From contig NZ_JABEZU010000001.1 in the NCBI RefSeq assembly GCF_013149785.1, positions 558,001-622,000 of the forward strand: 64,000 bases of DNA, read 5' to 3'. Origin of the DNA: Isoptericola halotolerans. Lineage in GTDB: Bacteria; Actinomycetota; Actinomycetes; Actinomycetales; Cellulomonadaceae. Under the pieces are notes generated by a model that was not told the origin of the DNA, did not search any database, and was given only the letters and a program-made list of their open reading frames with translations. Numbering within the stretch: position 1 is the first letter of the stretch; every line of letters begins with the position of its first letter. Made by a program: the position numbers and the translations under genes. Positions 22,365 to 41,659 of this stretch are shown here, one piece after another.

Positions 22365-24504
22365 AGTAGATCGTCCGGCCCTGCTCGTCGGGGATGCCTG
22401 ACTTCCGCCAGAAGTACGTGGTGACCTGGTCGCGCCACTCGACGGCCGAGCGACGCTGCTCGGTGAGCCGGTCGCTCACCCGCCGCGCGACGTCGTCGGG
22501 CACGAGACCGGCGACGTCCTCCCAGCGTTCCACCATGCGCTCCACCCGCTCGACGCCCTCGAAGTGGGTGTCGTAGACGTGCTGGACCACCGTCTTCCCG
22601 CTGTGCAGCACGTGGGTGTACGGCACGTGGTGGAAGAACAGCAGCAGCTCGTCGGGGCACGAGTCGAGGGACTCGTAGACCTCGCGCCACGGCGCCGGGT
22701 ACTGGCCGGTGTATCCCGTGCCGGTCGCGCGGGTGCGGTCCACGCCGATCCCGTCCCGGTCGGCGAAGTGGTAGGTGCCCCAGGGCGTGTACTCGTAGCC
22801 GTCCACGTCCGGCCCGTAGTGGTGGCCCGGCCGCACCATGAACCCGATGCCCAGCGGGGCGGTGTACAGCTCGTACGTGTGCCAGGACTCGTCGAGGATC
22901 GCGTGCACCGCCGCCCGCAGCTCGGCGGGCGCCCCGGGGAACGTCAGGTCGATCCACTCGTCCAGCACCGCTGGCGGGTCCAGGGCCGGGTCCCAGGCGA
23001 GCCGCCCGAACGCATAGAGGTTCGCCTGGGCCAGCGGGTGCCCGGTCCAGAAGCGGTCGTCCCCGACGTTGGAGACCGCCGCGATCCCACCGCCCTGCCC
23101 GCCCGGGCCACGGCCGGAGGCGAGGTCGGCCACGGTGACCGGGGCGCCGCCGTCGGGCGCGTCGTCGGGGCCCGCGGCATCGCCCCACGGCTGCCAGCGC
23201 AGGATCTCGCTCCACGCCGGCCCCAGGTAGACGGCGTGACGCTGCTGACCCGTGTACTCCTGCGTCACCTGCAGCTCGAGCGCCACCCGAGTGCGCGGCA
23301 TCGCGGCGAGCACGGGGGAGACGGGCTCGCGCACCTGGAAGTCGACCGGCCCGTGCTTGACCTGGACGACCACGTTGCCGGCGAACCTGCCGTCGAGCGG
23401 TGCGAAGTGGTCGTGGGCGGCGCGGGCACGGTCGGTGGTGCGGTCCCGCCAGTCCTGGGTGTGGTTGTAGACGAAGGCCCGCCAGTGGACGAGGCCACCG
23501 TGCGGGGCGACGGCCTCGGCGAGCATGTTCGCGCCGTCGGCGTGATCGCGTCCGTGCGCGAAAGGACCGGGCTGGCCCTCGGAGTCGGCCTTGACCACGA
23601 ACCCTCCGAAGTCGGGGACGGCGCGCCAGACGACGTCCGCGGCGTCGCGCCACCAGGTGCGCACCGCGGGGTCGAGCGGGTCCGACGTCGGCAGCCCGCC
23701 GAGGGTGACCGGTGAGGCGAAGCTCACCGACAGGTGGGTGCGTACCCCGTAGGGGCGCAGCGCGGCGGCGATGCGCGCGACCTCGGGCAGGTCGTCGGTG
23801 AGCAGGCGGGCCTCGCGGGCGGCGACGTTGACGTTGTTGATCGCGACGCGGTCGATCCCGACGGCGGCGAGCAGACGTGCGTACGTGGTGACCCGGCTCA
23901 GGTCGGCGCGGACGTGGCCGGCGTCGTAGAAGATCGACCCGCCCGCGTATCCCCGCTCGACCTGCCCCATGACGGGGTGCACGTCCACGTTGTCCCAGTG
24001 GTCGAGCATCCGCAGCGCGCTCACCGGGGCGTGGTGCTCGTCGGTGTCCGGGCCGTCGAACGCGACGGCGCCGAGACGGACCACGTGGAACCACCCGTGC
24101 AGCAGGCTCGTGGGGTGGTCCGCGGTGACGGTGACGCGGCCGGCGGCGCGAAGCAGCCGGTAGCCGGCGGGCTCGGCGGGCTCGGCGGGTGCCGGGTCCG
24201 CGGGGTCGAGGGCGAGGAGCAGGTCGGGCTCGTCGTCGTGCCCGACGACGGCGCCGCCGTGGGCGCGGGTGGCGCGGTCCAGCTCGGCCGACAGGGTGGC
24301 GAGCACGGCGCGGTCGGTGCGCCGGGAACTGCTGCGGTCGGTATGTTCGGTCGCGATCGGTCCCTCGAGCTGCCGATCGCGGCTGGAACTGCCGACCGGA
24401 ACGCCGGCTTCGTCGTCGGGCGACCGGAGCGCGAGACGGCGGCTGCCGACGGTCTGCAGCGCGGCGTCAGGCAGCCAGGCCGGGTGGAAATCGTTGTCGA
24501 GCAT
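22363..24504 (-). CDS. aguA: GH67 alpha-glucuronidase with an N-terminal insertion
   Basis: 713 residues, no signal peptide, so it acts on imported aldouronic acids, releasing (4-O-methyl)glucuronate from the non-reducing xylose. Key residues by comparison with known GH67 enzymes: general acid Glu309 in ADSEGQPGP, and Asp388 (GPVDFQ) and Glu416 (VTQEYTGQ) as the paired bases. The N-terminal domain (about 66-150) precedes the barrel. Residues about 34-58 are low-complexity and Ser/Arg-rich and correspond exactly to a dispersed repeat element at 24331-24404, which keeps the frame open. The ATG at 24504 has AAGGAGA upstream. Downstream of uxaC in the same direction. Confidence 0.93.
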   Translation of the reverse strand: MLDNDFHPAWLPDAALQTVGSRRLALRSPDDEAGVPVGSSSRDRQLEGPIATEHTDRSSSRRTDRAVLATLSAELDRATRAHGGAVVGHDDEPDLLLALDPADPAPAEPAEPAGYRLLRAAGRVTVTADHPTSLLHGWFHVVRLGAVAFDGPDTDEHHAPVSALRMLDHWDNVDVHPVMGQVERGYAGGSIFYDAGHVRADLSRVTTYARLLAAVGIDRVAINNVNVAAREARLLTDDLPEVARIAAALRPYGVRTHLSVSFASPVTLGGLPTSDPLDPAVRTWWRDAADVVWRAVPDFGGFVVKADSEGQPGPFAHGRDHADGANMLAEAVAPHGGLVHWRAFVYNHTQDWRDRTTDRARAAHDHFAPLDGRFAGNVVVQVKHGPVDFQVREPVSPVLAAMPRTRVALELQVTQEYTGQQRHAVYLGPAWSEILRWQPWGDAAGPDDAPDGGAPVTVADLASGRGPGGQGGGIAAVSNVGDDRFWTGHPLAQANLYAFGRLAWDPALDPPAVLDEWIDLTFPGAPAELRAAVHAILDESWHTYELYTAPLGIGFMVRPGHHYGPDVDGYEYTPWGTYHFADRDGIGVDRTRATGTGYTGQYPAPWREVYESLDSCPDELLLFFHHVPYTHVLHSGKTVVQHVYDTHFEGVERVERMVERWEDVAGLVPDDVARRVSDRLTEQRRSAVEWRDQVTTYFWRKSGIPDEQGRTIY
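24331..24404. repeat. Dispersed 74-bp palindromic element, copy inside the GH67 gene
   Basis: Ungapped alignment with 41586-41659 gives 57 identities in 74. Element positions 5-11 pair with 62-68 (CGGTCGG/CCGACCG) and 21-32 with 41-52, with a perfect 8-bp core GCGATCGG/CCGATCGC around a loop containing CTCGAG. Stem changes between the copies are partly compensatory (see findings). It codes for about 25 residues of the GH67 protein in the opposite direction. Confidence 0.7.
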
Positions 24505-24540
24505 GAGGCGGCTCTCCTTCGAGCGGCAGCCGCTGATCGT

Positions 24541-24608
24541 TGTGGGCGCGATTTCTGTGGGTAGATATCTCGTAGAACGGTCATATCGGGCCAGAAATCG
24601 CGCCCACA
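24541..24608. repeat. 68-bp element with perfect 17-bp terminal inverted repeats
   Basis: TGTGGGCGCGATTTCTG (24541-24557) is perfectly mirrored at 24592-24608; an inner GATAT/ATATC pair lies in the 34-bp centre, which is AT-richer than its surroundings. It fills most of the gap between uxaC and the GH67 gene, both on the minus strand. It could be a mobile palindromic unit or an intercistronic stem. Confidence 0.65.
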
Positions 24609-24611
24609 GCC

Positions 24612-26033
24612 TCAGCGGGGGGCGGGGTAGGCGGCCAGGGGGAGTCGGTAGGCGAGGTCGACGGCGGTCTCGGTCGCCTCGTCGAGGTCGAGACGGTGCT
24701 CCGCGACCAGTCGCGCCAGGTAGCCGGCGTCCACCCGGCGGGCCAGGTCGTGGCGCGCAGGGATCGAGCAGAAAGCCCGGGTGTCGTCCACGAACCCGCT
24801 CATGTTGCTGAAGCCCGCCGTCTCGGTCGCGGACTCACGGAACCGGCGCATCGCGTCCGGGGCGTCGAGGAACCACCACGGGGCACCCAGCCTCAACGCC
24901 GGGTAGACGCCGGCCAGCGGTGCGAGCTCGCGCGAGTAGACGTCCTCGTCCACCGTGAAGGCGATCATCCGGAAGGCCGGGTGGTGCCCGAAGGCGTCGA
25001 GGATCGGACGCAGGGACCGCGTGAACTCCGTGACGACCGGGATGTCGTACCCCTTGTCCGGTCCGAACGCCGCGAACGGCGCGGTGGCGTGGTTCCGCAG
25101 CACGCCCGGGTGCAGCTGCATGACCAGGCCGTCCTCGGTGGACATCGCGGCCATCTGGAAGAGCATGTGCCCGCTGAACGCCTCCGCCTCCGCCGCGGTG
25201 ACGGCGCCGGCCAGGGCGGCGTCGAACACCCGGCGAGCCTCGAGATCGTCCAACGGCGTGGTGTCGGCCGCGAGGTGGCCGTGGTCGGTGGCACGGGCGC
25301 CGGCCTCCACGAACCGCTGGCGCTGGACCCGCAGCGCAGCGAGGTAGGTCTCGTACGACCCGATCTCGACGTCGGCGGCCCGGCCGAGCAGGTCGATCTC
25401 CTCGCGCCACGTGGTCCGGTCGACGTGCAGCAACGGGTCGGGACGGAAGGTCGGCAGCACGCGGTCGCCGTAGCCGTCCTTGGCGAGCCGGGTGTGGTCC
25501 TCCAAGGATGCCCAGGCCGGGTCGGTGGTGGCGATGACCTCGATGCGGAAGGTGTCGAGCAGCGCGCGGGGGCGGAACTCCGGTGACTCGATCCGGGCGG
25601 CGACCTGGTCGTAGATCGCGTCCGCGGTCGCGGCCGACGGGCGTTGTGTGACGCCGAAGATCTCGACGAACGCGTGCTCGAGCCAGTACCGCGTCGGGGT
25701 CCCGCGGAAGTGCTGCCAGCCGGCGCAGAACCGCCGCCAGATCTCGCGGGGGTCCTGCTCGACGGCCTCGGTCTCGGTGGATCCGACGCCGAGCCGGGGC
25801 AGGGTCTCGCCCTGCGAGACCAGCATCCGGGTCAGGTAGTGGTCGGGCACCACGAAGAGCTGGGCCGGGTCGCCGAACGACGAGTCCTGCGCGAACCACT
25901 CGACCGGCACGTGACCGTGCATGGACACGATCGACAGGTCCCTCGTCGCCGCGTAGACCTCGCGGGCGATACCGCGGACGGTCGGGTCGGCGGGCAGGGC
26001 CCGGTCGGGGTGCAGGGTCCAGGGCTCGCTCAC
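24612..26033 (-). CDS. uxaC: Glucuronate/galacturonate isomerase
   Basis: 473 residues, the normal length for UxaC, an amidohydrolase-fold enzyme converting D-glucuronate to D-fructuronate (and galacturonate to tagaturonate). The metal-site motif MHGHVP lies near residues 38-43, EHAFVEIFGV and RWP-like aromatic region follow, and GAPWWFLDAPDAMRRF with SGFVDDTRAF is the conserved C-terminal block. Divergent from the LacI gene at 26161 with AACGTT boxes in between. Together with the GH67 gene downstream it takes glucuronate side chains into the cell's hexuronate pathway. Confidence 0.95.
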   Translation of the reverse strand: MSEPWTLHPDRALPADPTVRGIAREVYAATRDLSIVSMHGHVPVEWFAQDSSFGDPAQLFVVPDHYLTRMLVSQGETLPRLGVGSTETEAVEQDPREIWRRFCAGWQHFRGTPTRYWLEHAFVEIFGVTQRPSAATADAIYDQVAARIESPEFRPRALLDTFRIEVIATTDPAWASLEDHTRLAKDGYGDRVLPTFRPDPLLHVDRTTWREEIDLLGRAADVEIGSYETYLAALRVQRQRFVEAGARATDHGHLAADTTPLDDLEARRVFDAALAGAVTAAEAEAFSGHMLFQMAAMSTEDGLVMQLHPGVLRNHATAPFAAFGPDKGYDIPVVTEFTRSLRPILDAFGHHPAFRMIAFTVDEDVYSRELAPLAGVYPALRLGAPWWFLDAPDAMRRFRESATETAGFSNMSGFVDDTRAFCSIPARHDLARRVDAGYLARLVAEHRLDLDEATETAVDLAYRLPLAAYPAPR

Positions 26034-26055
26034 GGGCGCCTCCTCGTCGAGTGGG

Positions 26056-26147
26056 TGACAACGTTTGCATCATACGGACTTCGATCCTCGGTGTCACGAT
26101 GAAGGCGTTAGGCTGTCCCCGGGACAGTCAACCTGTAAACGTTCGCA
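26056..26147. promoter_or_regulatory. Divergent operator pair, uxaC and the LacI-uxuB operon
   Basis: TGACAACGTTTGCA at 26056-26069 lies 23 bp before uxaC, and TGTAAACGTTCGCA at 26134-26147 lies 14 bp before the regulator gene. Both fit TGnnAACGTTnnCA and are 78 bp apart centre to centre. They are the probable targets of the LacI protein encoded at 26161, which would then repress both directions. Confidence 0.8.
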
Positions 26148-26160
26148 GCCGGAGGGGCTC

Positions 26161-27180
26161 ATGGTCACGGTGCACGACGTCGCCCGGTCGGCCGGGGTGT
26201 CCATCTCTACCGTCTCGCGCGCGCTCGCCGCACCCGAGAAGGTCGCCTCCGCGACCCGCGAGCGCGTCCGGCGGGCCGCCGCGGAGCTCGGCTACCGCCC
26301 CAACCGTGCCGCTGCCGTGCTGCGGGCCGGCCGGTCGGGCGCCTACGGGCTCGTGGTGCCAGACCTCGCGAACCCCTACTTCGCGGCCGTCGCCAAGGGC
26401 GCTCAGGAACGGGCCCGCGAGCACGGCGCAGGACTGTTCATCGTGGACACCGACGAGGACCCGGACCTCGAGGCCGAGGCGATCCGTGCCCTCGCCCCCC
26501 AGACGGACGGCGTGGTGCTCTGCTCGCCCCGAGCCGCCGACCGTGCGTTGGGTGCCCTGGACGGGCGACCTGTCGTCCTCGTCAACCACGACGTCGCCGG
26601 TGTCCCCGCGGTCGAGGCCGACCATCGCGGCGGCATGCAGCGTGCGCTGGAGCACCTGCGCGCCCTCGGTCACCACCGGGTGGCCTACGTCGGCGGACCC
26701 GAACGCTCGTGGAGCGATCGCCGTCGTCGGGCCGGCCTCGTCGAGGCGTCGGCCCGGTACGACGACGTCGAGGTCGTCGAGCTGGGAGCGTTCCGTCCCC
26801 GGGTGGAGGGTGGCCAGGCGGCGGCCGACCTCGTCGTCGCGTCCGGCGCCACGGCCGTCGTCACGTTCAACGACCTGGTCGCCGTCGGTCTCGTCGACCG
26901 GCTGCGGGCACGAGGCCTCGACGTCCCGCACGACCTGTCGGTCGTCGGCTGTGACGACTCCTACGTCGCCTCGCTCGTCACCCCGCCCCTGACCACCCTG
27001 CGTGTCGACCTGCGCCGGCTCGGGCGCCACGCCGTCGACCGCCTCGTCGCCTCGGCGTCCGGGGGCCGATCGACCGGCGCGGAGACTCCTGTCCCGGACG
27101 CGCCCCCGCTCGACGTCGAGCTCGTCGTGCGGTCGTCGACCGCACCTCCCGTCCGTCACTCGTCCGGAGGAACCTTGTGA
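26161..27180 (+). CDS. LacI-family regulator of glucuronate catabolism
   Basis: 339 residues; helix-turn-helix at the very N terminus (TVHDVARSAGVSISTVSRALAAPEKV, with the hinge LGYRPNRAA) and a ligand-binding domain from about 60. ATG 26161 follows GAGGGG. The stop overlaps the GTG of uxuB, so regulator and enzyme are made together, and the operators upstream also face uxaC. Functionally it plays the part of UxuR/ExuR but from a different family. Probable inducer: glucuronate, fructuronate or an aldouronic acid (inference). Confidence 0.92.
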   Translation: MVTVHDVARSAGVSISTVSRALAAPEKVASATRERVRRAAAELGYRPNRAAAVLRAGRSGAYGLVVPDLANPYFAAVAKGAQERAREHGAGLFIVDTDEDPDLEAEAIRALAPQTDGVVLCSPRAADRALGALDGRPVVLVNHDVAGVPAVEADHRGGMQRALEHLRALGHHRVAYVGGPERSWSDRRRRAGLVEASARYDDVEVVELGAFRPRVEGGQAAADLVVASGATAVVTFNDLVAVGLVDRLRARGLDVPHDLSVVGCDDSYVASLVTPPLTTLRVDLRRLGRHAVDRLVASASGGRSTGAETPVPDAPPLDVELVVRSSTAPPVRHSSGGTL

Positions 27181-28721
27181 ACGACCGTCTGCACCGTCGC
27201 GCCGTCCCTGCCGACCTCGAGCCGCCGGTCCACCCGGAGTCGGTGGGCATCGTCCACCTCGGCATCGGCGCTTTCCATCGCGCGCACCAGGCCGTCTTCA
27301 CCGAGCTCGCGGCCCGCTCGAGGGGTGACCTGCGCTGGGGGATCCTGGGCGTGACGCAGCGGTCGGCCACGGTGCGCGACCAGCTCCGGCCGCAGGGCGG
27401 GGTCTACTCGGTGCTCACGGCCGGGCGTGAGGAGTCCTCCGTCGATCTCGTCGGGTCGGTGCTCGACGTCGCCTGGCCCGCGGAGGAGACTGCGCGGGTC
27501 CTGGGCACGATCGCCGCACCGACCACGCACCTGGTCACGCTCACGGTGACGGAGAAGGGCTACTGCCGCGACGCCGGGGGAGCGCTCGACCTGGGGCTGG
27601 TGCGAAGCGACCTGGACGCCCTCGGCGCCGAGCAGGAAGCTGCGCCCGGTATGCCGGCGCACAGCGGGACCAACCTCCTGGTCGGCGGGGCGGTGCCGGC
27701 GTCGACGGCGGTCGGCCTGCTGGTCCGCGGGCTGGCCGCGCGGTACCGGGCCGCCCGGGCCGCCGGCGAGCTGCGGCCGCTGACGGTGCTGACCTGCGAC
27801 AACATGGTCGACAACGGTCGAGTGCTGGAGGGCCTCGTGCGTGCGGCGCTCGAGGCCGCCGTGCCCGGCGACACCGCTCTGCGGGCCTGGCTGGACGAGC
27901 ACGTGACGTTCCCCTGCTCGATGGTGGACCGCATCGTGCCGGCCACGACCGCCGCGCAGCGTGACGCCGTCGAGCAGCGGCTCGGTGTGCGCGACGAGGG
28001 CCTGGTGGTCGGTGAGCCCTACCGCCAGTGGGTCATCGAGGACCGGTTCGCCGGGCCGCGCCCCGCCTGGGAGGACGCCGGCGCGACGATCACCGACGAC
28101 GTCGCCGTCTGGGAGCGCGCCAAGCTGCGGCTGCTCAACGGCACGCACTCGTTGCTCGCGTACGCGGGCCGGCTCGCGGGCCACGCCACGATCGCAGAGG
28201 CGATCGACGACCCGGCGATCGAGGCCCGGGCGCGGCAGCTCCTCTTCGACGACGCGCTGCCCACGCTCACCCCGCCCCGGGGGGCGGACCTCGCGGCCTA
28301 CGGCGAGTCGCTGCTGGAGCGCTTCGCGAACCCGGCGACCGGGCACACCACGGTGCAGGTGTCGATGGACGGCACCCAGAAGATCCCGTACCGCTGGGGC
28401 GACACGGTCGCCGAGCGGCTGGCGGCCGGAGAGATCCCGCACGGCGCGGCCTACGCGCTGGCGGCATGGTCGGAGGTCGTACGGCACGAGGCGCTGGCCG
28501 GCCGGCTCGTCGACGACCCCCGCGCGGCGCAGCTGCGCGACGTCGTCCGCGCGGTGGGTCGGGGGTCGGTCGAGGCAGCGCGACCTGAGGACGTGGCGCG
28601 GGCGCTCACCGCGCTGCCCGGCCTGCTGCCCGGCGGCTCCGGGACGGACCCGGCGCTGCTCGACGCGGTCGTGGACGAGGCCGAGAGGCTTGTCGGCGCG
28701 GAGGCTGTCGCGACGAGGTAG
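27177..28721 (+). CDS. uxuB: D-fructuronate reductase (mannitol dehydrogenase family)
   Basis: 514 residues in the long-chain mannitol/fructuronate dehydrogenase family: NAD-binding motif HLGIGAFHRAHQA near 28-40, C-terminal catalytic block with Lys in WERAKLRLLNGTHS near 318-331, and IPYRWGDTVAE. It reduces D-fructuronate to D-mannonate. GTG start 27177 overlaps the regulator stop (GTGA). A mannonate dehydratase gene, the next step, is not in this window. The family also contains mannitol and tagaturonate enzymes; the uxaC context favours fructuronate. Confidence 0.88.
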   Translation: MNDRLHRRAVPADLEPPVHPESVGIVHLGIGAFHRAHQAVFTELAARSRGDLRWGILGVTQRSATVRDQLRPQGGVYSVLTAGREESSVDLVGSVLDVAWPAEETARVLGTIAAPTTHLVTLTVTEKGYCRDAGGALDLGLVRSDLDALGAEQEAAPGMPAHSGTNLLVGGAVPASTAVGLLVRGLAARYRAARAAGELRPLTVLTCDNMVDNGRVLEGLVRAALEAAVPGDTALRAWLDEHVTFPCSMVDRIVPATTAAQRDAVEQRLGVRDEGLVVGEPYRQWVIEDRFAGPRPAWEDAGATITDDVAVWERAKLRLLNGTHSLLAYAGRLAGHATIAEAIDDPAIEARARQLLFDDALPTLTPPRGADLAAYGESLLERFANPATGHTTVQVSMDGTQKIPYRWGDTVAERLAAGEIPHGAAYALAAWSEVVRHEALAGRLVDDPRAAQLRDVVRAVGRGSVEAARPEDVARALTALPGLLPGGSGTDPALLDAVVDEAERLVGAEAVATR

Positions 28722-28757
28722 CGCGCGGCCGCGACGTCGGAGCCGTCGCGGCGCGCG
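28721..28757 (+). terminator. Probable terminator after uxuB
   Basis: A GC-only stem: 28721-28736 pairs with about 28744-28757 with a single bulged base and a loop TCGGAGC, starting at the last base of the uxuB stop. Confidence 0.5.
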
Positions 28758-29043
28758 CCGTGGCCGAAACCGTGCGAGCCGGTTCGCGAATCCGCGCGGC
28801 CCGGTTCGCCCGCTGAGACATGGATCACCTACGCTCGGCGGGATGTGAGCGCTCACATCACCGCCGGTGAGGACCCCGTCGTCGCTGCCGATGGGGTCCG
28901 GCTCGTTGCCGGATCGTGATGAAGCGCTTTCCCGAAGGGCTGGACACCGACGCTCAGACCTGTATTGTATCGTTTCAAGTCGACGGGACAGAGGGGCCAC
29001 AGGGGGCTTCCTCGGCGTCGACGTCCTGAGCAAGGAGGCTCCG
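28722..29043. promoter_or_regulatory. 322-bp intergenic control region of the second importer operon
   Basis: Three different LacI-type boxes lie here: GATGTGAGCGCTCACATC (28842-28859), a perfect 18-bp palindrome; AAGCGCTT in GAAGCGCTTTCC (28921-28932); and TTGTATCGTTTCAA (28965-28978), close to the TGAATCGATTCA rhamnose-type box. The region 28937-28980 is AT-richer and is the likely promoter. The binding-protein gene starts at 29044 after AAGGAGG. Confidence 0.7.
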
Positions 29044-30339: not shown

Positions 30340-30352
30340 CGCTCTCTACGTA

Positions 30353-30390
30353 GCGTGCGGTCCCGCGCCTCGCGGCGCGGGACCGCACGC
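30353..30390 (+). terminator. Intercistronic stem-loop after the binding-protein gene
   Basis: A perfect 17-bp stem (30353-30369 with 30374-30390) with the 4-nt loop TCGC, placed between the lipoprotein gene and the permease Shine-Dalgarno GGAGG. Typical position for partial termination or 3' protection giving more binding protein than permease. Confidence 0.75.
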
Positions 30391-30405
30391 ACCGGAGGTA
30401 CCACC

Positions 30406-32309: not shown

Positions 32310-32313
32310 CCGC

Positions 32314-32967: not shown

Positions 32968-33023
32968 CCGCCCCAGAGCTCCCCTCGTCACCACGGTGGG
33001 GAGGGTGATCGCAAGTGCACTGA

Positions 33024-33037
33024 TTGCAACGATGCAA
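33024..33037. promoter_or_regulatory. LacI-type box before the PL11 gene
   Basis: TTGCAACGATGCAA is an inverted repeat TTGCA/TGCAA with the central ACGA off by one base from a palindrome. It shares the spacing TTGnnnCGnnnCAA with the rhamnose-type boxes and lies 15 bp before the PL11 start, overlapping nothing but the Shine-Dalgarno edge. Confidence 0.55.
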
Positions 33038-33052
33038 GGAGGAGACAGAGCG

Positions 33053-35410
33053 ATGAGACTCCACCGCACGACGGCCTGTGCCGTCGCCGCCGCGACCGTC
33101 GGGGCCCTGGCCCTGGGGTCGACGGCCACGGCCGCCCCGGGAGGCCACCCCGGCCAGCCCGGCCACGGTCAGGACGACGGGATCGTCCTGGAGGACCTGG
33201 ACCGCGGTCTGGTGGCGGCCAGCACCAGCGAGGGTGTGTTCCTCAGCTGGCGGCTGCTCGGCCACGAGGTCACCGGTGCCACCGAGACCGGCATGGACGG
33301 CGTCGGGTTCGCCGTCTTCCGCGACGGCCGGCAGATCGGCACCGTCACCGACTCGACCAACTACGTCGACCCCGACGGCGGGGCCGCCTCGCGCTACGTC
33401 GTCGCGCCGTTGCGCGACGGCCACCCGGGCAAGGGGCACGTCAAGGGCAACGGCAAGAACCACGTGCACTGGGGCCAGCGGAGCGAGACCGTCGTGCCGC
33501 TGGCCGACGACCACCTCGACATCCCGCTGAACAAGCCGGCCGACGGTGTCACCCCGGTCGGGGAGGCGTACACGTACTCCGCCAACGACGCCTCCGTCGC
33601 GGACCTGACCGGCGACGGCACCTACGAGGTGATCGTCAAGTGGGACCCGTCGAACTCCAAGGACGTCTCGCAGAAGGGGTACACGGGCAACCAGTACCTC
33701 GACGCGTACACGCTCGACGGCGAGCAGCTCTGGCGGATCGACCTCGGCGTCAACATCCGGGCCGGGGCGCACTACACGCAGTTCCCGGTGTACGACTTCG
33801 ACGGGGACGGCCGTGCCGAGGTGATGGTCAAGACGGCCCCGGGCACGAAGGTCACCACCTACCGGAACGGCGAGCCGAGGCGCGACGCGTACGTCACGAT
33901 CCCGAAGGACGACCGGAAGGCCGGCGTCACGCACGCCGACGACTACCGGTACAGCGCGGACGACTACTACGAGCACGTCGTGGAGATGTTCCGCGACTGG
34001 GCGGACTACCCCGAGGTGACCAGCGGTGAGTGGCCGGCCACGCTCGAGGAGGCGTTCGGCATCGACCCGCAGCACGACTACCCGTTGTCCGACGCGGACG
34101 CGCGCGAGCTGGCCGACCACTTCATGGACGTCTACGCCCCGGAGCGTTCGGGCCGCAACGACCTGCGCACCTTCGAAGGGTTCGTGATCTCCGGCCCCGA
34201 GTACCTGTCGGTGTTCGACGGCCGCAGCGGGCGTCCGCTGGAGACGGTCGACTACGAGCCGGAGCGGTACGACGACGGTCTGCGCTGGGGCGACTACGCG
34301 ATGAGCCGCATCGAACCGGGCAACCGCGTCGACCGGTTCCTGGCCGGTGTGGCCTACCTCGACGGCGAGACACCGTCGGCCGTGTTCGCCCGTGGGTACT
34401 ACACCCGCTCGACCATCGCCACGTACGACTGGGACGGCAAGCGCCTGACCCAGCGCTGGATGGTGGACTCCGGCTGGACGCCGATGTCGAACCCGTTCAA
34501 CGACGGGCCCCACGGGACGCTGGGTACCGACCCGGAGTTCGGGTCCATCACGACGCAGGGCTTCCACTCGCTGTCGGTGGCCGACGTGGACGGTGACGGC
34601 AACCAGGAGATCGTCTACGGCTCGGCGACGATCGACCACGACGGCTCGCTGCTGTACTCGTCGTTCGACACCCTGCCCGAGGGCTCGGCGGACCCCGGTG
34701 CCTGGGCAGGGCTCGGGCACGGCGACGCCATGCACGTGACGGACATCGACCCGTCACGTCCCGGCCTCGAGATCTGGACGTGCCACGAGGGCGGGGCCTG
34801 GGCCCCGTACGGGACCGCGATGCGCGACGCCGCCACCGGGGAGGTCCTCTTCGGGGCGTACTCCGGGCGGGACACCGGCCGGTGCATGATCGGCGACGTC
34901 GACACCGAGGTGCCGGGCATCGAGGTGTGGGGCTCGATGCCGGGTGGTTCCGACGGCTCGGGGACGCTGAGCGCGACGGGCGAGCTGGTCGCCACCTCGA
35001 CCCCGGGGACGAACGCCTCGGTGCGCTGGGCGGCCGACGGCAGCACGCAGCTCATCGAGGGTGCGATCACAGAGACCCCGCGGATCGTGGCCGGTGACGG
35101 CACGGTGCTGCGGACCCTCGACGGCACCCTGACCAACAACCACACCAAGGGCAACCCGTCGCTCGTGGCGGACGTCCTGGGTGACTGGCGCGAGGAGGTG
35201 CTCGTGCGCACCGAGGACTCCTCGGCGCTGCGGGTGTACTTCGCGACCGAGGTCACGGACATCAAGATGTACACGCTGATGCACGACCCGCAGTACCGGG
35301 TCGAGGTGGCGCGGCAGCAGACCTCGTACAACCAGCCGTCCTACCCCGGGTTCTACCTGGCGTCGGACACCGACTGGTCGCAGGTGCCGGTTCCCGGTGC
35401 CCGTCAGTGA
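33053..35410 (+). CDS. Secreted rhamnogalacturonan lyase, family PL11
   Basis: 785 residues. A signal peptide covers about residues 1-27 (basic MRLHR, hydrophobic core, Ala-x-Ala near the cleavage). A FnIII-like beta domain (about 45-145) precedes an eight-bladed propeller with repeated calcium sites such as DLTGDGTYEV, DFDGDGRAEV and DVDGDGNQEI. PL11 enzymes cleave the rhamnose-galacturonate backbone of rhamnogalacturonan I by beta-elimination, leaving unsaturated galacturonyl ends. There is no dockerin or sorting signal, so it is probably released into the medium. ATG 33053 follows GGAGGAG. A GH105-type enzyme that would open the unsaturated product is not in this window. Confidence 0.95.
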   Translation: MRLHRTTACAVAAATVGALALGSTATAAPGGHPGQPGHGQDDGIVLEDLDRGLVAASTSEGVFLSWRLLGHEVTGATETGMDGVGFAVFRDGRQIGTVTDSTNYVDPDGGAASRYVVAPLRDGHPGKGHVKGNGKNHVHWGQRSETVVPLADDHLDIPLNKPADGVTPVGEAYTYSANDASVADLTGDGTYEVIVKWDPSNSKDVSQKGYTGNQYLDAYTLDGEQLWRIDLGVNIRAGAHYTQFPVYDFDGDGRAEVMVKTAPGTKVTTYRNGEPRRDAYVTIPKDDRKAGVTHADDYRYSADDYYEHVVEMFRDWADYPEVTSGEWPATLEEAFGIDPQHDYPLSDADARELADHFMDVYAPERSGRNDLRTFEGFVISGPEYLSVFDGRSGRPLETVDYEPERYDDGLRWGDYAMSRIEPGNRVDRFLAGVAYLDGETPSAVFARGYYTRSTIATYDWDGKRLTQRWMVDSGWTPMSNPFNDGPHGTLGTDPEFGSITTQGFHSLSVADVDGDGNQEIVYGSATIDHDGSLLYSSFDTLPEGSADPGAWAGLGHGDAMHVTDIDPSRPGLEIWTCHEGGAWAPYGTAMRDAATGEVLFGAYSGRDTGRCMIGDVDTEVPGIEVWGSMPGGSDGSGTLSATGELVATSTPGTNASVRWAADGSTQLIEGAITETPRIVAGDGTVLRTLDGTLTNNHTKGNPSLVADVLGDWREEVLVRTEDSSALRVYFATEVTDIKMYTLMHDPQYRVEVARQQTSYNQPSYPGFYLASDTDWSQVPVPGARQ

Positions 35411-35482
35411 CCTGACCGGCGGTCACTGACCAGGTGCCGCCGGGGCGGGTGCGGGGGAGACCTGCACCCGCCCCGGCGGCAC
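35403..35482 (+). terminator. Two stem-loops after the PL11 gene
   Basis: GTCAGTGA (35403-35410, overlapping the stop codon) mirrors 35423-35430, and a perfect 19-bp stem pairs 35434-35452 with 35464-35482 around an 11-nt loop. The second is a convincing terminator and separates PL11 from the oxidoreductase operon 29 bp downstream. Confidence 0.8.
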
Positions 35483-35511
35483 GTCATCGACGACTTGAGA
35501 GAGTAGGACCC

Positions 35512-36657
35512 ATGAAGGTCAGCATCCTGGGGGCCGGCGCGATCGCCCACGCCCACGCCGACGCCGTCCGTGCACTGGCAGCCCTGGAAGGGCTGGGGGA
35601 CGTCGAGCTGACCGGGGTGGTGGACGTCGACGCCGCACGCGCCGAGCAGTTCGCGGCGCAGCACGGCATCGCCCACCACGGCACCGACCTGGCGGCGCTG
35701 CTCGCCGCGGGGGAGGTCGACGTGCTGCACATCTGCACGCCGCCGTCGCTGCACCTCGAGCAGGCCCGCGCCGCCCTGGCCGCGGGGGCGCACGTCGTCG
35801 TCGAGAAGCCGGCCGTGCTGTCCCTGGCCGAGATCGACGCCCTGGCCGAGGCGGAGCGCGCCGGGGCCGACGGTGCCCGGTTCACCCAGATCGTGCAGCA
35901 CCGGTTCGGTGCCGGGGCGCTGCGGCTGCGGCGGTTGCTCGCCGACGGCACGCTGGGCCGTCCGCTCGTCGCGACCTGCGACACGATGTGGTTCCGGCCG
36001 CCGGAGTACTTCGAGGTGCCGTGGCGCGGCCGGTTCGACACCGAGGGCGGCGGTCCCACGATGGGCCACGGCATCCACCAGTTCGACCTGCTGGTCTCGG
36101 TCCTGGGGGAGTGGACCGAGGTGCGGGCCATGGCCGGCCGGCTCGCCCGCCACGTGGACACGGAGGACGTCTCGATGGCGATGGTGCGCTTCTCCTCGGG
36201 CGCCATGGCCAGCATCACCAACTCGCTGCTCTCCCCGCGCCAGACCTCCTCGCTCCGGTTCGACACCGAGCGCGCGACCGTCGAGCTCGAGCACCTCTAC
36301 GGTTACGACGACGACTCCTGGCGCGTCACGCCAGCCCCCGGCGCCGACGACGTCGTCACCGCCTGGACCGCGGACGTCGCGGCGGGGGAGCGGGTCGACG
36401 ACGGCCGCTCCGGGCACCTGGCCCAGCTCGTGCCGACCTACCGTGCGCTGGTCGCCGGCGAGGCCCCGCCGATCACGGTCGACGACGCCCGGGGGACGCT
36501 CGAGCTGGCGGCCGCGATCTACCGGTCGGCCTTCACCGGCGAGACCGTGTCCCGTGGGCAGATCAGCACCGACGACTCCTTCTACGCCAGCATGGGCGGC
36601 ACGGGGGCACCGTGGCCCCCGGTCAAGGACGTCCCGGCACAGGAGGCCACCCCATGA
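35512..36657 (+). CDS. Gfo/Idh/MocA-family oxidoreductase
   Basis: 381 residues: Rossmann fold with GAGAIAHAHADA near 8-19, the family lysine in VVEKPAVLS near 104-112 and HGIHQFDLL near 186 in the C-terminal substrate domain. Such enzymes oxidise a sugar or inositol hydroxyl with NAD(P). ATG 35512. The stop overlaps the ATG of the DUF6807 gene. Oxidoreductase plus DUF6807 plus cupin-like gene is a recurrent actinobacterial arrangement without known pathway, as far as I can recall; substrate here is presumably a pectin-derived sugar. Confidence 0.88.
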   Translation: MKVSILGAGAIAHAHADAVRALAALEGLGDVELTGVVDVDAARAEQFAAQHGIAHHGTDLAALLAAGEVDVLHICTPPSLHLEQARAALAAGAHVVVEKPAVLSLAEIDALAEAERAGADGARFTQIVQHRFGAGALRLRRLLADGTLGRPLVATCDTMWFRPPEYFEVPWRGRFDTEGGGPTMGHGIHQFDLLVSVLGEWTEVRAMAGRLARHVDTEDVSMAMVRFSSGAMASITNSLLSPRQTSSLRFDTERATVELEHLYGYDDDSWRVTPAPGADDVVTAWTADVAAGERVDDGRSGHLAQLVPTYRALVAGEAPPITVDDARGTLELAAAIYRSAFTGETVSRGQISTDDSFYASMGGTGAPWPPVKDVPAQEATP

Positions 36658-37709
36658 GCGTCACCCTGGACTGCGGCGACGGCGCGATGACGGGGTCGCG
36701 CGACGGCGTCGACCTGTTCGAGTACGTCTACCGCCCGACCGACGTCCCGTACGAGAGCCCGCGACCCTACCTGCACCCGCTGCGCACCCGCGGCGGCGCG
36801 GTGGTCTCCGAGTACCGGCCGTGGGACCACGTGTGGCACAAGGGCATCGCCTGGTCGTTGCCGCACGTGGGGCCGTGGAACTTCTGGGGCGGGCCCAACT
36901 ACGTCCACGCCGAGCGCGGCTACGTCGACCTGCACAACGACGGTTCGATGGATCACGAGCAGTTCACCGCCGTGGGTCCGTGCGGGTTCGTCGAGCGGCT
37001 GTCCTGGCGCACGCCGCCCACCACCGGCCCGTACGGTGACGTGCCGGGCGACGTCGTCGTCCGCGAGGAGCGCACCGTGCAGGTGCTGCTGCCCGACGCC
37101 TCGCCGGACGTCTGGGCGCTCACGTTCACCTCCGAGATGACGAACGTCTCCGACGGTCCGCTCGACATCGGCAGCCCGACTACCAACGGGCGCGAGAACG
37201 CCGGGTACGGCGGGCTCTTCTGGCGGGGGCCGCGCTCGTTCACCGAGGGTCGGGTGCTGCTGCCCGGTGCGGACGGCACGGGCGTGGTGGCGGACGCCGA
37301 GGACGCCCGCGGGCTGCGGGCCGAGTGGCTCGGGTTCGTCGGTCGGCACGACGGCGCCGCACCCCCGACCACGAGCGGCCGGCACGGCGGCTCGCGCAGC
37401 TCGACCGTCCTCATGGTCGATCCCGGCACGAACCCTGGAGGGACCCCGCAGTGGTTCGTGCGGTCGGTTCCCTTCGCCTGCGTGTGCCCCGCGCCGTTCT
37501 TCAGCGAGGAGGTGCCGTTCGGCGCCGGCGAGACCCTGCGGTTCACCTATGCGGTGATGATCGCCGACGGCGAGTCCGACGGTGCGCGGGGAGCCGGGCT
37601 CGCCGCGCTGGGCCGGCAGGTGCTCGCCGGCGAGGGTGGCCGGCTCGAGCCGGGGCACGTCGCGCCCGCCGCGCATGCCGCGCCGGCCGGCGGGCGCCTG
37701 CCCGCATGA
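36654..37709 (+). CDS. DUF6807 (PmoA-like) protein
   Basis: 351 residues, cytoplasmic. Characteristic blocks: YLHPLRTRGGAVVSEYRPWDH, the histidine-rich HVWHKGIAWSLPHVG, NFWGG and HEQFTAVG, then GRENAGYGGLFWRGPRSF. This family is annotated 'methane oxygenase PmoA' after an old misannotation; it has no relation to methane monooxygenase. The fold looks like a galactose-mutarotase-type beta-sandwich, and the conserved histidines suggest a sugar-binding or metal site (inference). Coupled to both neighbours by 4-base overlaps. Confidence 0.82.
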   Translation: MSVTLDCGDGAMTGSRDGVDLFEYVYRPTDVPYESPRPYLHPLRTRGGAVVSEYRPWDHVWHKGIAWSLPHVGPWNFWGGPNYVHAERGYVDLHNDGSMDHEQFTAVGPCGFVERLSWRTPPTTGPYGDVPGDVVVREERTVQVLLPDASPDVWALTFTSEMTNVSDGPLDIGSPTTNGRENAGYGGLFWRGPRSFTEGRVLLPGADGTGVVADAEDARGLRAEWLGFVGRHDGAAPPTTSGRHGGSRSSTVLMVDPGTNPGGTPQWFVRSVPFACVCPAPFFSEEVPFGAGETLRFTYAVMIADGESDGARGAGLAALGRQVLAGEGGRLEPGHVAPAAHAAPAGGRLPA

Positions 37710-38245
37710 CGGCTGTCTTCCCCGGCGGCACGTCCGTCAGCCACCTGCAGGTCTACGACTGGCCCACGCAGGACGCTCCGCAGGGCAGCGGGTCGCCCCA
37801 CCTGCACACCACCTCGACCGAGGCCTACGTGACCCTGGCCGACGTGCTCGCCGACCCGGAGCGGTACGCCGCGGCCGCCGCCCTGCCGCGCCTCGACGAC
37901 GGTGCCACCGACGCCGATCTGGCCGCGGCTGCCCGGGCCCGCCGGGACCTGGCGCTGGAGGGCTACGCGGCGCTGCGCTCCGCCGTCGACCAGCACGGGC
38001 CGGACGCTCTGGCGCCCCTGTACGACGCCGCGGCCCGGCTGGTGGCCCCGCGCACGGGGACCTGGCGAGAGATCTGGGAGGGCTCGGTCCAGCAGGCCGC
38101 GGGCCAGACCGACGCCGCCCTCGAGGCCCTCGCCGACGCCTCACCGGTCACCCTGGACGAGGGGAGCGTGGCGGCCGCCGACGCGGCCGAGGGTCCGCGT
38201 CGCTACGGCATGTGCGGTCGCCTGCGCACCTGGCCGCTGGCCTGA
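37706..38245 (+). pseudogene. Cupin-like protein with apparent internal deletion
   Basis: 179 residues, ATG overlapping the DUF6807 stop (ATGA). The N-terminal 43 residues (GGTSVSHLQVYDW, PHLHTTSTEAYVT) look like the beginning of a cupin with its PHLHTxSTE metal motif, and residue 46 onwards (ADVLADPERYAAAAALP to GMCGRLRTWPLA) like the helical C-terminal part of the same family. The stretch that should hold the rest of the barrel and the second histidine motif, about 60 residues, is absent, and the join is in frame. I recall full-length relatives of about 240 residues; this rests on memory, not a search. Possibly a broken but still translated gene. Confidence 0.5.
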
Positions 38246-38249
38246 GCAC

Positions 38250-38293
38250 CGCCCTGCTCCGTCCTGCCGACGTCGGCAGGACGGAGCAGGGCG
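38250..38293. terminator. Bidirectional terminator, perfect 44-bp palindrome
   Basis: 38250-38271 is the exact reverse complement of 38272-38293. It sits between the convergent cupin-like gene and GH42 gene, directly against the GH42 stop codon. Confidence 0.88.
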
Positions 38294-40363
38294 TCAACGG
38301 GCAGGCGTCTCGCGCAGCACGCGGACGGCGCCGGCAGGCACGGGCAACGAGCCGCCGACGGCGCTGTCGCCGACCAGCTCGACGCCCGTCACCCCGTCGA
38401 TCGTGACGTCGTCCTCGGTGTGGTTGATGGCGAAGAGCCAGGTGGTGGCACCGTCGTCCGAGCGCCGCCGCACCAGCTCGACGCCGGCCGGGGCCTCGAG
38501 GTCGGGCCGTACCCCGGACTCCTCCACGAGGGTCCTCGCCAGGGCGTCCAGCCCTTCGCGGTCGAGCCGGGTACCCACGTACCAGGCGGTCCCGGCGCCG
38601 ACGTCGCGACGGGTCACGGCCGGACGCCCTGCGAGCGGCCCGCCGTCGTACGTCGCCACGACCTCGGTGCCGTCCAGCACGTGGGTCTTCTCGCTCCACA
38701 GGTCCGCCGTGGCGTCCCCGCCCACGGCCTTGCCGACGACCTCGACCCGCTCGTCGACCTGCAGGGGGACGAACTCCTCGGTGCGGACGCCGAGCAGGTC
38801 ACGGAACGCGCCCGGGTAGCCGCCGAGGCGGACCTGGTCGTGCTCGTCGACGATGCCCGAGAAGAACGTGATCGCCACGGTGGCGCCGCGCTCGGCGGCC
38901 GCGGCGACGTTCGCGGCCGCCTCGTCCTCCACCAGGTAGAGCGTGGGGGCGACGACGAGGTCGTAGCCGTCGAGATCGGCGCGCGGGGGCACGACGTCCA
39001 CGGACACCCCGAGGCGCCACAGCGCCGAGTACCAGGAGCGCACCTCGTCCATGTAGCGCAGGTCCTGCGTGGGGTGGGAGTCGAGCTCGGCGGCCCACCA
39101 GGCCGGGTAGTCCACCAGCAGCGCGGCCCGGGCCTCGACCCGCGAGCCGCGGACCTCGCCGAGACTCTGCAGCACGCCACCGAGCTCGACGGTGCCTCGC
39201 CACACGTCGGTGTCCGTCCCGGCGTGCGGCAGCATCGCCGAGTGGAACTTCTCGGCGCCCGCCCGGGACTGGCGCCACTGGAAGAACATGACCGAGTCCG
39301 CGCCGCGGGCCACGTGCTGCAACGAGTTGCGCAGCATCTCGGCGGGCGTCTTGGCGCGGTTGCGCGGCTGCCAGTTGACGGCCGACGTCGAGTGCTCCAT
39401 GAGGATCCACGGCTCGCCGCCTGCGACGCCGCGCGCGAGGTCGGCCGACAGGGCGAGCTCGACGTGCCGCTCGGGGTCCGCGGCGATCGTGTAGTGGTCG
39501 TTGGCGACGACGTCGAGGTCGTCGGCCCACGAGAAGTAGTCCATCCCCTTGGTGGTCGACGTCGTCATGAGGTTCGTCGTCGTGGGGACCTGCGGGGTGA
39601 TCTCGCGCAGGGTGTCGCGCAGGTCGCGGTAGTAGTCGAGCAGCGCGTCGGAGCTGAACCTGTCGAAGTCCAGCTGCTGCGTCGGGTTGGCGAACATCGG
39701 GGCGACCAGCGGCGGCAGCACGTCGTCGAAGGTGGCGTACCGCTGCGACCAGAACGCGGTGCCCCAGGCGTCGTTGAGCCGGTCGATCGTGCCGTACCGC
39801 TCGTTCAGCCACGTGCGGAACGCGGTGGCAGCGGCGTCGGAGTAGTCGCGCGGGACGTGGCAGCCGATCTCGTTGTCGACGTGCCACAGGGCCAGGGCGG
39901 GGTGGTCGCCGTAGCGCTCGGCCATGCGGGCGGTCATGCGCAGGGCGTAGTCGCGGTGCACCGGGTGGGTCACGGCGTACGACTGGCGGGCGCCCTGGTG
40001 GAGCACGGTGCCGTCGGCGCGCTGCGGCAGGATCTCCGGGTGCCGGCGGGTCAGCCACGGCGGCGGGGACGCCGTGGCCGTGGCGAGCGCGACCTGGATG
40101 CCTGCTGCGTGCAGCTGATCCATCGTGTCGTCCAGCCATCCCCACTCGAGCTCGCCCTCGCGCGGCTCGATCGTGGCCCAGGCGAAGATCGCGACGCTCA
40201 GGAGGTTGACGCCGGCCTCGCGCATGAGGTGGAGGTCCTCGGCGCGGACGTCGGCGGGCCACTGCTCGGGGTTGTAGTCGCCACCGAAACCGAGACCGTC
40301 GATCCGTGCGTTCCAGGGGGTGACGGCGGCGGGGTCGAAGGTGGGGGAGGTGCGTCGTCGCAT
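38294..40363 (-). CDS. GH42 beta-galactosidase, second paralogue
   Basis: 689 residues, intracellular. Acid/base Glu165 in WHVDNEIGCH and nucleophile Glu323 in ILMEHSTSAVNWQ; the AVNWQPRNRAK stretch is typical of the large actinobacterial GH42 group. Unlike the copy at 18959 it lacks the CxCxxC zinc cluster, so the two are distant paralogues. It probably removes galactose from pectic galactan side chains: a TGAATCGATTCA-type box lies 16-27 bp upstream of its start and the rhamnose regulator gene is next to it. Confidence 0.93.
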   Translation of the reverse strand: MRRRTSPTFDPAAVTPWNARIDGLGFGGDYNPEQWPADVRAEDLHLMREAGVNLLSVAIFAWATIEPREGELEWGWLDDTMDQLHAAGIQVALATATASPPPWLTRRHPEILPQRADGTVLHQGARQSYAVTHPVHRDYALRMTARMAERYGDHPALALWHVDNEIGCHVPRDYSDAAATAFRTWLNERYGTIDRLNDAWGTAFWSQRYATFDDVLPPLVAPMFANPTQQLDFDRFSSDALLDYYRDLRDTLREITPQVPTTTNLMTTSTTKGMDYFSWADDLDVVANDHYTIAADPERHVELALSADLARGVAGGEPWILMEHSTSAVNWQPRNRAKTPAEMLRNSLQHVARGADSVMFFQWRQSRAGAEKFHSAMLPHAGTDTDVWRGTVELGGVLQSLGEVRGSRVEARAALLVDYPAWWAAELDSHPTQDLRYMDEVRSWYSALWRLGVSVDVVPPRADLDGYDLVVAPTLYLVEDEAAANVAAAAERGATVAITFFSGIVDEHDQVRLGGYPGAFRDLLGVRTEEFVPLQVDERVEVVGKAVGGDATADLWSEKTHVLDGTEVVATYDGGPLAGRPAVTRRDVGAGTAWYVGTRLDREGLDALARTLVEESGVRPDLEAPAGVELVRRRSDDGATTWLFAINHTEDDVTIDGVTGVELVGDSAVGGSLPVPAGAVRVLRETPAR

Positions 40364-40378
40364 GGCCGAAGTCTGCCA

Positions 40379-40390
40379 TAAATCGATTCA
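40379..40390. promoter_or_regulatory. Rhamnose-type operator before GH42
   Basis: TAAATCGATTCA, one base off the palindrome TGAATCGATTCA, 16 bp upstream of the GH42 start. Same box as at 41717-41728. Confidence 0.75.
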
Positions 40391-40423
40391 AACTCCGAGC
40401 CCGGGGCGACGAACCGGGCGGCC

Positions 40424-41440
40424 CTACGGCGCTCGGGTGGTGGAGGACTCGCGGACGACCAGCTCCGGCTTGAACACCACGTGCTCGGCCGGCGCGTCGG
40501 TGCCGCGCAGCATCATGTCAGCAGCGCGGGCGCCGAGCTCGTGACGCGGCTGGCGCACCGAGGTGAGCGGGGTGGCGAGCTCCGCCGCGAAGGTGACGTC
40601 GTCGTACCCGACCAGCGCGACGTCGTCGGGCACCGAGACGCCCGCCCGCCGCAGCGTCCGCAACGCACCGAGGGCGACCAGGTCGTTCACGCAGAAGACG
40701 GCGGTCGGGCGGTCGTCGGCCTCGAGCAGGGCGCGGATGCCGGTCTCGCCACCGTTCGCGTCGAGCGGGACGGTGACCTCGACGAGCGCCGCGTCCGGGT
40801 CGCGACCTGCGTCGGCGAGCGCCCGACGGGCGCCCTCGAGGCGATCGGCGCACTGGCGTATGGAGTGCGTGCCGTTGAGGAACGCGATGCGGGTGTGCCC
40901 CTGGTCGAGCAGGTGGCGGGTCGCCAGCGCCCCGCCGAGCACGTCGTCGACGGCCACGGAGGACACCGAGTCCACCGGTGAGGGGTGGTCCAGCAGGACG
41001 ACGCCGATCCCGCGCTCGCGGACGGCGAGCAGATGGTCGATCGACTCGCCCGTGGGGACCACCATGACCCCGCGCACGCCGTGCTCCTCGAAGAGTCGCA
41101 GGTACCGGGCCTCGCGCTCGGGCTCGCGGTCAGAGCTGGCCACCATGAGCGTGTAGTCGTCGGCCGTGAGCCGTTCCTCGATGCCGCGGGTCACGTCGGT
41201 GAAGAACGGGTTCGAGATGTCGAGCACGATCGCCCCGACGGTCGTGATGCGCCCGGCCCGGAGCTGGCGGGCCGAGCCGTTGCGGACGAACGACAGCTCG
41301 GCGATCGCGGCCTCGACGCGCTCGCGGGTGGTGGGGGAGACCCGGTCGGGCCGGTTGAGGACGTTGGAGACCGTGCCGACGGACACGCCGGCACGACGCG
41401 CGACATCGGCGATCGACGTGCGCCGGGTGCGGGGCGACAT
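40424..41440 (-). CDS. LacI-family regulator of the rhamnose regulon
   Basis: 338 residues with N-terminal helix-turn-helix (SIADVARRAGVSVGTVSNVLNRPDRV, about 9-34) and effector domain from about 62. ATG 41440 follows GGAGAGGG. It is divergent from rhaM and upstream of the second GH42 gene, and both carry the TGAATCGATTCA box, so it is the likely repressor of rhamnose and rhamnogalacturonan genes. E. coli uses AraC-type RhaS/RhaR instead; LacI-type rhamnose regulators are known from other phyla. The inducer is probably L-rhamnose or L-rhamnulose (inference). Confidence 0.9.
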   Translation of the reverse strand: MSPRTRRTSIADVARRAGVSVGTVSNVLNRPDRVSPTTRERVEAAIAELSFVRNGSARQLRAGRITTVGAIVLDISNPFFTDVTRGIEERLTADDYTLMVASSDREPEREARYLRLFEEHGVRGVMVVPTGESIDHLLAVRERGIGVVLLDHPSPVDSVSSVAVDDVLGGALATRHLLDQGHTRIAFLNGTHSIRQCADRLEGARRALADAGRDPDAALVEVTVPLDANGGETGIRALLEADDRPTAVFCVNDLVALGALRTLRRAGVSVPDDVALVGYDDVTFAAELATPLTSVRQPRHELGARAADMMLRGTDAPAEHVVFKPELVVRESSTTRAP

Positions 41441-41585
41441 GGGGGTCCCTCTCCTCGTCGACAGGGGCTGGTCGGGTCGTGGGGCGCGGTCGGTGACCGC
41501 ACCCAGGGATGGTAGCCGTTCGCCACGCCGTGGGGGGCGCGGACGCGCAGGTAGGGTGGAAACCGGTTACCACCCCGGGCCGTGC

Positions 41586-41659
41586 GCTGCGATCGGTCCG
41601 TTCGGCAGCGCTCGGCATCTCGAGCTGCCGAGTGCTGCTCGATGTGCCGACCGGAGGGC
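41586..41659. repeat. Dispersed 74-bp palindromic element, intergenic copy
   Basis: 57 of 74 positions match the copy inside the GH67 gene. Inner stem GCGCTCGGCA pairs with TGCCGAGTGC (one G-T pair) around a CTCGAG-containing loop; outer stem CGATCGG with CCGACCG has one mismatch. Confidence 0.7.

Follow-up and report, generated by a model that had tools for sequence, protein, structure and literature searches.

The 64,000-nt stretch of Isoptericola halotolerans DNA analysed here (the window; contig NZ_JABEZU010000001.1, positions 558,001 to 622,000) comes from a soil actinobacterium and contains solitary copies of short palindromes that recur elsewhere in the genome, many of them in pairs that enclose one gene of about 310 codons, here called X. 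The palindromes and X are probably the DNA half and the protein half of a two-part system that resembles the repetitive extragenic palindromes (REPs) and their RAYT transposases, with an unrelated enzyme, and we infer that X spreads the palindromes or keeps them uniform. This reading draws on the bracketing of X at a near-fixed distance, on solitary palindromes of the same type as the bracketing ones, on the co-divergence of palindromes and X, on insertions, and on the existence of several such families. The original prediction for this stretch, made by a model from the sequence, was of a dispersed palindrome; that family is real, but the cognate protein-coding gene and two further palindrome families in the window had been missed.

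Among the matches listed for the main family (family A), many palindromes are paired about 1.1 kb apart with X between them, and the spacing from palindrome centre to palindrome centre, 1.09-1.16 kb, leaves room for X only. A profile of four X proteins finds 22 matches of at least 288 bits in the genus (18 genomes), plus weaker ones. All 21 of these close X loci at which both flanks are readable carry a palindrome at each end, with 24-33 of 33 symmetric pairs; 26 of 2176 control windows of 400 bp reach 24 of 33. Some of the end palindromes have sequences outside the recognition of the covariance model used for family A. X thus has a palindrome at its distal end too, past the stop codon.

Outside this close set, family-level X loci with full flanks have palindromes at both ends in 16 of 23 cases (including two genus loci recovered again) and at one end in the other seven, two of 25 loci having been dropped because their flanks were too short. 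At the class level, where four of 29 loci were dropped for the same reason, both ends reach 24 of 33 pairs in 3 of 25 loci, and none of the 10 distant homologues within the genus is bracketed by this gap-free score, which overlooks interrupted and short palindromes. An arm test, defined by inverted repeats on both sides (13 of 14 arm pairs, spacer of at most 44) with arms alike at 12 of 14 positions, finds bracketing at 12 of 19 close loci (L181, L188 and L364 left out), 5 of 10 distant loci, 9 of 15 remote loci (scored on partial match coordinates, with blurred gene ends) and 5 of 25 class-level loci, against 1 of 240 control pseudo-genes. These counts strengthen the pairing of X with palindromes, not the inferred mechanism. 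The same palindrome is found at both ends of L191 and of L195. When longer arms are scanned by eye, L370 is bracketed too and the long-arm brackets of L372 differ from the pair that was scored; L368 and L373-L376 are unbracketed in either scan.

Within an X locus the two ends resemble each other (mean 56 of 66 positions across 19 loci, excluding L178, whose ends were picked off-register), versus a mean of 34 of 66 between loci. Solitary palindromes, or solos, follow the same pattern: 36 of 54 have their best or tied-best match in an X end of their own genome, compared with a mean of 11.2 and a maximum of 20 in 5000 label permutations. This comparison excludes L251 (an X flank), L228 and L237 (score 19, without a centred palindrome) and the four remaining solos of genome G014, which has no X end in the set. 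The genome studied here has three close X genes, and its 20 solos fall into three classes by the nearest of these; for 18 of the 20, no other genome offers a better match.

Judged by its flanks, X occupies shared positions in groups of 6, 8, 3 and 2 genomes, plus one single. The names used for these positions (rplI, dinF, pepP and acpS) are what we take the neighbouring genes to be from their translations, and are not database-derived. The seven X proteins at the pepP position form one clade in the tree (support 99/99). At these seven loci the flanking DNA is 79-88% identical, the X proteins 51-67% and the orthologous palindromes 33-72%, and the two ends of each locus are 74-97% identical to each other. 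Similarity of X and similarity of palindromes are correlated across 17 loci (Mantel r 0.54, 0 of 9999 permutations), excluding L170, which is a near copy of L167, and L178, L181 and L364; the correlation is also present inside the pepP group (r 0.64, 23 of 5040 permutations). On these comparisons, a cognate pairing of X and palindromes is well supported.

PADLOC models for AbiEi match the N-terminal and middle part of all 18 X proteins, and the Pfam AbiEi_4 model gives weak matches in 13 of the 18, below the cut-off in those shown. In the C-terminal half, residues E216, D247, E258-x-D260-G and K264 are invariant in 18 of 18 sequences (alignment A4, from which the frameshifted L181 is excluded along with L170 and L188). 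This order of E, D, ExD and K is the usual one for PD-(D/E)xK nucleases. Pfam finds DUF559 in one X member at 0.003 and MTES_1575 REase in six of seven distant homologues (best 6e-4); A4 and the alignment of the distant homologues, A5, are homologous across 287 columns. A sequence search of the PDB returned no match for A4 and, for A5, four weak matches with E of at least 0.18, two of them RAP-domain proteins. The C-terminal part of X is a probable PD-(D/E)xK nuclease, a label taken from sequence. The AbiEi relative Rv2827c is described as binding four inverted repeats, and not the AbiEi site (excerpts of PMC7319586); such four-repeat, cognate-only binding fits a putative binding role for X. 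A phage-borne X was also considered and rejected, with none of 20 pattern matches in viral contigs confirmed and no PHROG found.

Family A is represented in the window by two solos, one of them inside an alpha-glucuronidase gene:

24334..24399, no strand, family-A solo palindrome with a 66-nt core, in the GH67 gene, adding about 26 residues in frame

22363..24504, minus strand, alpha-glucuronidase GH67 gene hosting the insertion (Pfam PF07488, PF07477)

41589..41654, no strand, family-A solo palindrome with a 66-nt core, intergenic, by a LacI-type regulator and rhamnose genes

The original prediction compared these copies over 74 bp (24331-24404 and 41586-41659), and its alignment is reproduced exactly: 57 of 74 positions are identical without gaps, stem pairs 22-51 (C-G or A-T) and 26-47 (A-T or C-G) are altered on both sides, pairs 25-48 and 21-52 change to G-T or G-C, and the loop CTCGAGC is the same in both. 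Each copy has 25 of 36 Watson-Crick symmetric pairs. Folded as the plus strand, both copies surpass 200 of 200 dinucleotide shuffles (z -3.9 and -5.1); as the minus strand, the second copy again surpasses all 200 (z -4.3), and the first is weaker (z -2.0, equalled by 6 of 200 dinucleotide shuffles). The predicted gene context is also correct, with the first copy in the GH67 frame as an insert at about residues 34-58 and the second between genes for a LacI-type regulator and a RhaA-like protein. Pfam identifies the middle and C-terminal GH67 domains in the frame at 22363-24504; the best relatives of the protein are from Isoptericola, and its orthologues L031-L034 match it at 72-78%.

The predicted dispersal is borne out as well. 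BLAST with the first copy finds further copies genome-wide (best non-self E 1e-11), and a covariance model of the kind that had been proposed, here built from 13 full-length copies, matches both strands at no fewer than 25 places in this genome. It also has matches in at least 17 of the 18 genus genomes and in at least 65 of 150 family genomes, from at least 13 of 25 genera. The copy number for this genome is a lower bound, 150 of 9582 first-look candidates having been scored, and the E-values are rough owing to a short calibration. The converse outcome raised with the prediction, that this and related genomes hold no further copies, is thereby set aside.

Thirteen full-length copies align as a single symmetric palindrome of about 66 nt, in which all pairs have the form (i, 99-i) by column and 84% of cells are paired. 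Changes on both sides occur in 16 of 32 pairs, a number reached in 6 of 500 shuffles, and the covariation score is above that of all 500. Palindromes of the family-A type have an internal period of 19 bp (identity 0.73, versus 0.13-0.35 at the other shifts printed), so that a TCGG-type motif is present four times in each. The 13-copy alignment has no T-run after the stem, such as an intrinsic terminator would have, and no conserved GTAG beside the hairpin, and Rfam has no match within window positions 23000-43000. Chance, or an artefact of GC-rich sequence, is ruled out by the folding against shuffles, the BLAST family, the covariation and the covariance-model copies. The paired changes reported in the original prediction are thus real, but the selection on (RNA) base pairing that it drew from them is not established: a near-perfect DNA palindrome does not require such selection, as homogenisation of the arms by template switching or four like binding sites would suffice. 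Template switching is described as homogenising the arms of inverted repeats (PMC8604942).

The other two families in the window, D and E, are represented by the following features:

53847..53912, no strand, family-D solo palindrome with 32 of 33 pairs; two copies of the family flank a remote X homologue at G000:C1:868392-869324 (G000 is the present genome)

53806..53846, plus strand, extra partial family-D arm adjoining the palindrome at 53847-53912 (pair I2)

24542..24607, no strand, interrupted family-E solo with 16-bp arms GTGGGCGCGATTTCTG and CAGAAATCGCGCCCAC, upstream of GH67

Family D (window 53806-53932) has matches at 15 or more places in this genome, from 40 scored candidates out of 83, and no match at E 0.001 in eight other genus genomes. 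At locus L351, two family-D copies 1.17 kb apart enclose a gene whose 310-aa product is a remote homologue of X (tblastn 9e-12 against a database of four loci; PADLOC AbiEi 3e-16; Pfam weak). Copies of the family agree with the ends of L351 at 44-56 of 66 positions, versus at most 34 of 66 for the ends of 20 other X loci. In G007 and G012, too, family E lies upstream of GH67, and among the matches listed it is scattered in G007, G012 and G001. Remote X homologues bracketed by family E occur at L353 in this genome, at L366 in G012 and at L365 in G007, the last with one end diverged. The homologue in this genome is a DUF559 protein (G000:C2:371428-372318), scoring 30 bits against the Pfam model, for which the cut-off is 20.6. 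The four solos of the window belong to three unrelated families, each bracketing its own AbiEi/nuclease-like gene.

All 19 proteins from relatives that align across the site lack the roughly 26 residues of the GH67 insert (a 20th, L035, stops short of the site and is excluded), and the orthologous DNA of G007 and G012 lacks the insert as well. By tblastn there is a clean gap in G007 and G012, most of the insert is missing in G009, and a short alignment from G017 crosses the place without an insert; G001 gives no alignment of the GH67 N-terminus. The comparison of N-termini proposed with the original prediction therefore finds an insertion missing in relatives, and not residues shared by orthologous GH67 proteins. 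In G009, a different, unrelated inverted repeat (23 of 33 pairs) is located near the insertion point, at position 265 of L331 (G009:C1:546200-547000), and in G001 a palindrome of 27 of 33 pairs is present in the region adjoining the GH67 cluster (L330, G001:C5:57200-58200). For the rhamnose-side copy (41586-41659), there is no palindrome in G007 or G001, and the corresponding regions of G017 and G009, which are not aligned, contain none above 21 of 33 pairs. G012 has a larger, degraded form at this site, with the arms repeated in tandem; these tandem arm units (L333, G012:C1:349800-350500) suggest local arm amplification.

An open-frame survey of the 13 copies places two clearly inside genes, namely GH67 and a fusion of carboxyltransferase C/D and A/B domains, presumably of the PxpB/PxpC type, in which the palindrome lies in frame within the inter-domain linker. 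A third palindrome, L020, found at an open frame's upstream end, is not a clear in-gene case. The linker palindrome is present in five of eight genomes and missing in three, and its sequences vary, often with both sides of a pair changed: between G007 and G012, six pairs are altered on both sides and two otherwise, and the G017 copy differs mostly asymmetrically. It may be that a single old insertion has been rewritten in place, or that insertion has been repeated; the comparison does not separate the two. The analogy to rickettsial palindromic elements drawn in the original prediction holds for insertion within genes and not beyond that. Empty sites are seen, but the relatives are too diverged for their boundaries, or a target-site duplication, to be read.

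In the proposed two-part system, X would combine an AbiEi-antitoxin-like DNA-binding N-terminal part with its probable PD-(D/E)xK C-terminal part, and would bind a motif present twice per family-A arm, 19 bp apart, giving four sites per palindrome. It could cut or nick at palindromes or at new sites, and repair of the break could copy the palindrome to new places or overwrite old copies. The symmetry within each copy would be kept by binding of X, by template-switch correction, or by both.

Models without mobility might also be considered. If X were an autoregulating DNA-binding protein and the palindromes its operators, the solos would be regulon members or chance-spread sites. AbiEi-type proteins do bind inverted repeats at their own promoters, four of them in the case of Rv2827c (PMC7319586, in part), and each family-A palindrome offers four motifs spaced by 19 bp. 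However, the second palindrome is downstream of the X stop codon, solos are found within coding frames (GH67 and the PxpB/C linker) and past the 3' ends of genes, and the insertions missing in relatives would be left unexplained, making a purely regulatory role unlikely. The strong folding and the changes that preserve pairs are also what would be expected of bidirectional terminators or RNA hairpins under base-pairing selection, and three palindromes (L005, L015 and L122) fill short gaps between convergent frames, with the frames judged by composition only. This explanation is very unlikely in light of the missing T-run in the 13-copy alignment, the lack of an Rfam match in the part of the window searched and the copies in reading frames, and it accounts neither for the bracketing of X nor for the matching of palindrome ends to X type.

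A purely mutational origin of the compensatory pattern, in which template switching equalises the arms of quasi-palindromes without selection, is in keeping with the known homogenisation of arms (PMC8604942) and with the G007/G012 in-gene site, where six pairs are changed on both sides versus two otherwise. It is less easily reconciled with the mostly asymmetric differences of the G017 copy at the PxpB/C site, and it covers the symmetry within a copy but not the likeness of copies in one genome or the bracketing of X. As a complete explanation it is highly improbable; as a process it is compatible with the two-part system, and both can act together. Finally, the palindromes could be remnants of an ordinary insertion sequence or REPs driven by a RAYT, with X as a bystander, since dispersed short palindromes of other bacteria are described as RAYT-driven (portions of PMC3733652 and PMC8049555). 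A RAYT origin was rejected: PF01797 (Y1_Tnp), the one transposase family searched, is found in 0 of 18 genus genomes, versus 5 of 14 in the control rings. With close X loci bracketed at 21 of 21, and two unrelated families bracketing two other X homologues, this is the least probable of the explanations considered here.

Several observations weigh against the two-part system itself. Movement has never been observed, there being one genome per species, and target-site duplication is not resolvable; X itself is not seen moving, and its positions are old. The nuclease label of X proper comes from motif residues and weak Pfam matches. Half of the distant and most of the class-level homologues fail the arm test, and at L188, the 22nd close X, which lies at a contig end, the only readable flank has a degraded palindrome (20 of 33 pairs) at the expected place. 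Eighteen of the 54 solos are not best matched to their own genome, with own-genome matches at 0 of 6 in G012, 0 of 2 in G006, 0 of 1 in G005 and 0 of 1 in G002, and the solos compared are the top matches of this genome's family-A model and so form a biased sample. Among the matches listed, G014 and G004 hold palindromes without a close X, as do, at the cut-offs applied, the family genomes G031, G035 and G082. At one position, a G000 copy and the G007 copy (C2:195099) have near-identical palindromes that have hardly diverged, and the close pair L167/L170 stands at 87%. Judging from the inverted repeat in G009, the GH67 spot may be one that attracts insertions.

The closest parallel to the two-part system is the REPtron, the combination of REPs or REPINs with a RAYT. 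In the excerpted text of the sources, RAYTs are single-copy, vertically inherited genes that duplicate REPINs (PMC8049555), and they have repeats on their flanks (PMC3733652). Both arrangements combine short palindromes dispersed in the genome with a gene that these palindromes bracket, and they share stable gene positions with vertical inheritance and occasional copies within genes. In contrast to the REPtron, the protein here is AbiEi-like with a probable PD-(D/E)xK part rather than a Y1 HUH transposase, there is no GTAG tag, the family-A palindromes are about 66 nt long, near-perfect and of 19-bp period, and tens of copies were found, not more than 100. By analogy, then, the arrangement would work like a REPtron without being a member of that group. 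For CGTC repeats, which include two rickettsial families, a dedicated transposase is reported missing (PMC3733652, in excerpt). Rickettsial palindromic elements and CGTC-tagged REPs are similar in their in-frame insertions in genes; unlike them, the palindromes here are actinobacterial and GC-rich and have a bracketed cognate gene. The N-terminal and middle part of X fits profiles of AbiEi from type IV toxin-antitoxin systems, and AbiEi binds inverted repeats, but X is alone between its palindromes and has an extra nuclease-like C-terminal part. No adjacent nucleotidyltransferase, the AbiE toxin, occurs between the palindromes, a result that does not extend to genes outside them, which were not screened.

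Short palindromic repeats for which no enzyme is apparent have long been a puzzle, and no RAYT was found in this genus. The pairing of three unrelated palindrome families of one genome with a bracketed gene gives a concrete enzyme that can be tested, and it offers a source for the palindromes within reading frames of these bacteria. It also suggests a possible role other than that of an antitoxin for solitary AbiEi-like proteins. No palindromes paired with an AbiEi/DUF559-type gene were found in the literature covered, which leaves out most subscription journals and bioRxiv preprints, and the arrangement looks like a means, not described before, by which short bacterial repeats spread or stay uniform. 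A broader and more tentative proposal, to which we give slightly less than even confidence, is that Actinobacteria harbour palindromic elements each equipped with its own AbiEi-fused PD-(D/E)xK nuclease, with several unrelated elements coexisting in one genome. These would form a widespread, undescribed selfish or domesticated class, in which a nuclease reading repeated palindrome motifs would drive homing-like spread and rewriting across the genome by cleavage-coupled copying. If true, REP-like repeats would have a second enzymatic route in addition to the HUH RAYTs, with protein and palindrome diverging fast together.

Class-level X homologues in other actinobacterial families (L301, L310, L315, L318, L294, L298 and L320) are bracketed by palindromes of unrelated sequence (for L310, L315 and L318, on the gap-free score alone). 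From these class-level brackets, the system may reach well beyond the family. At one further locus, L181 (G011:C10:282296-283226), the X match is in two pieces in different frames and both end palindromes are kept, and this may represent a decaying unit.

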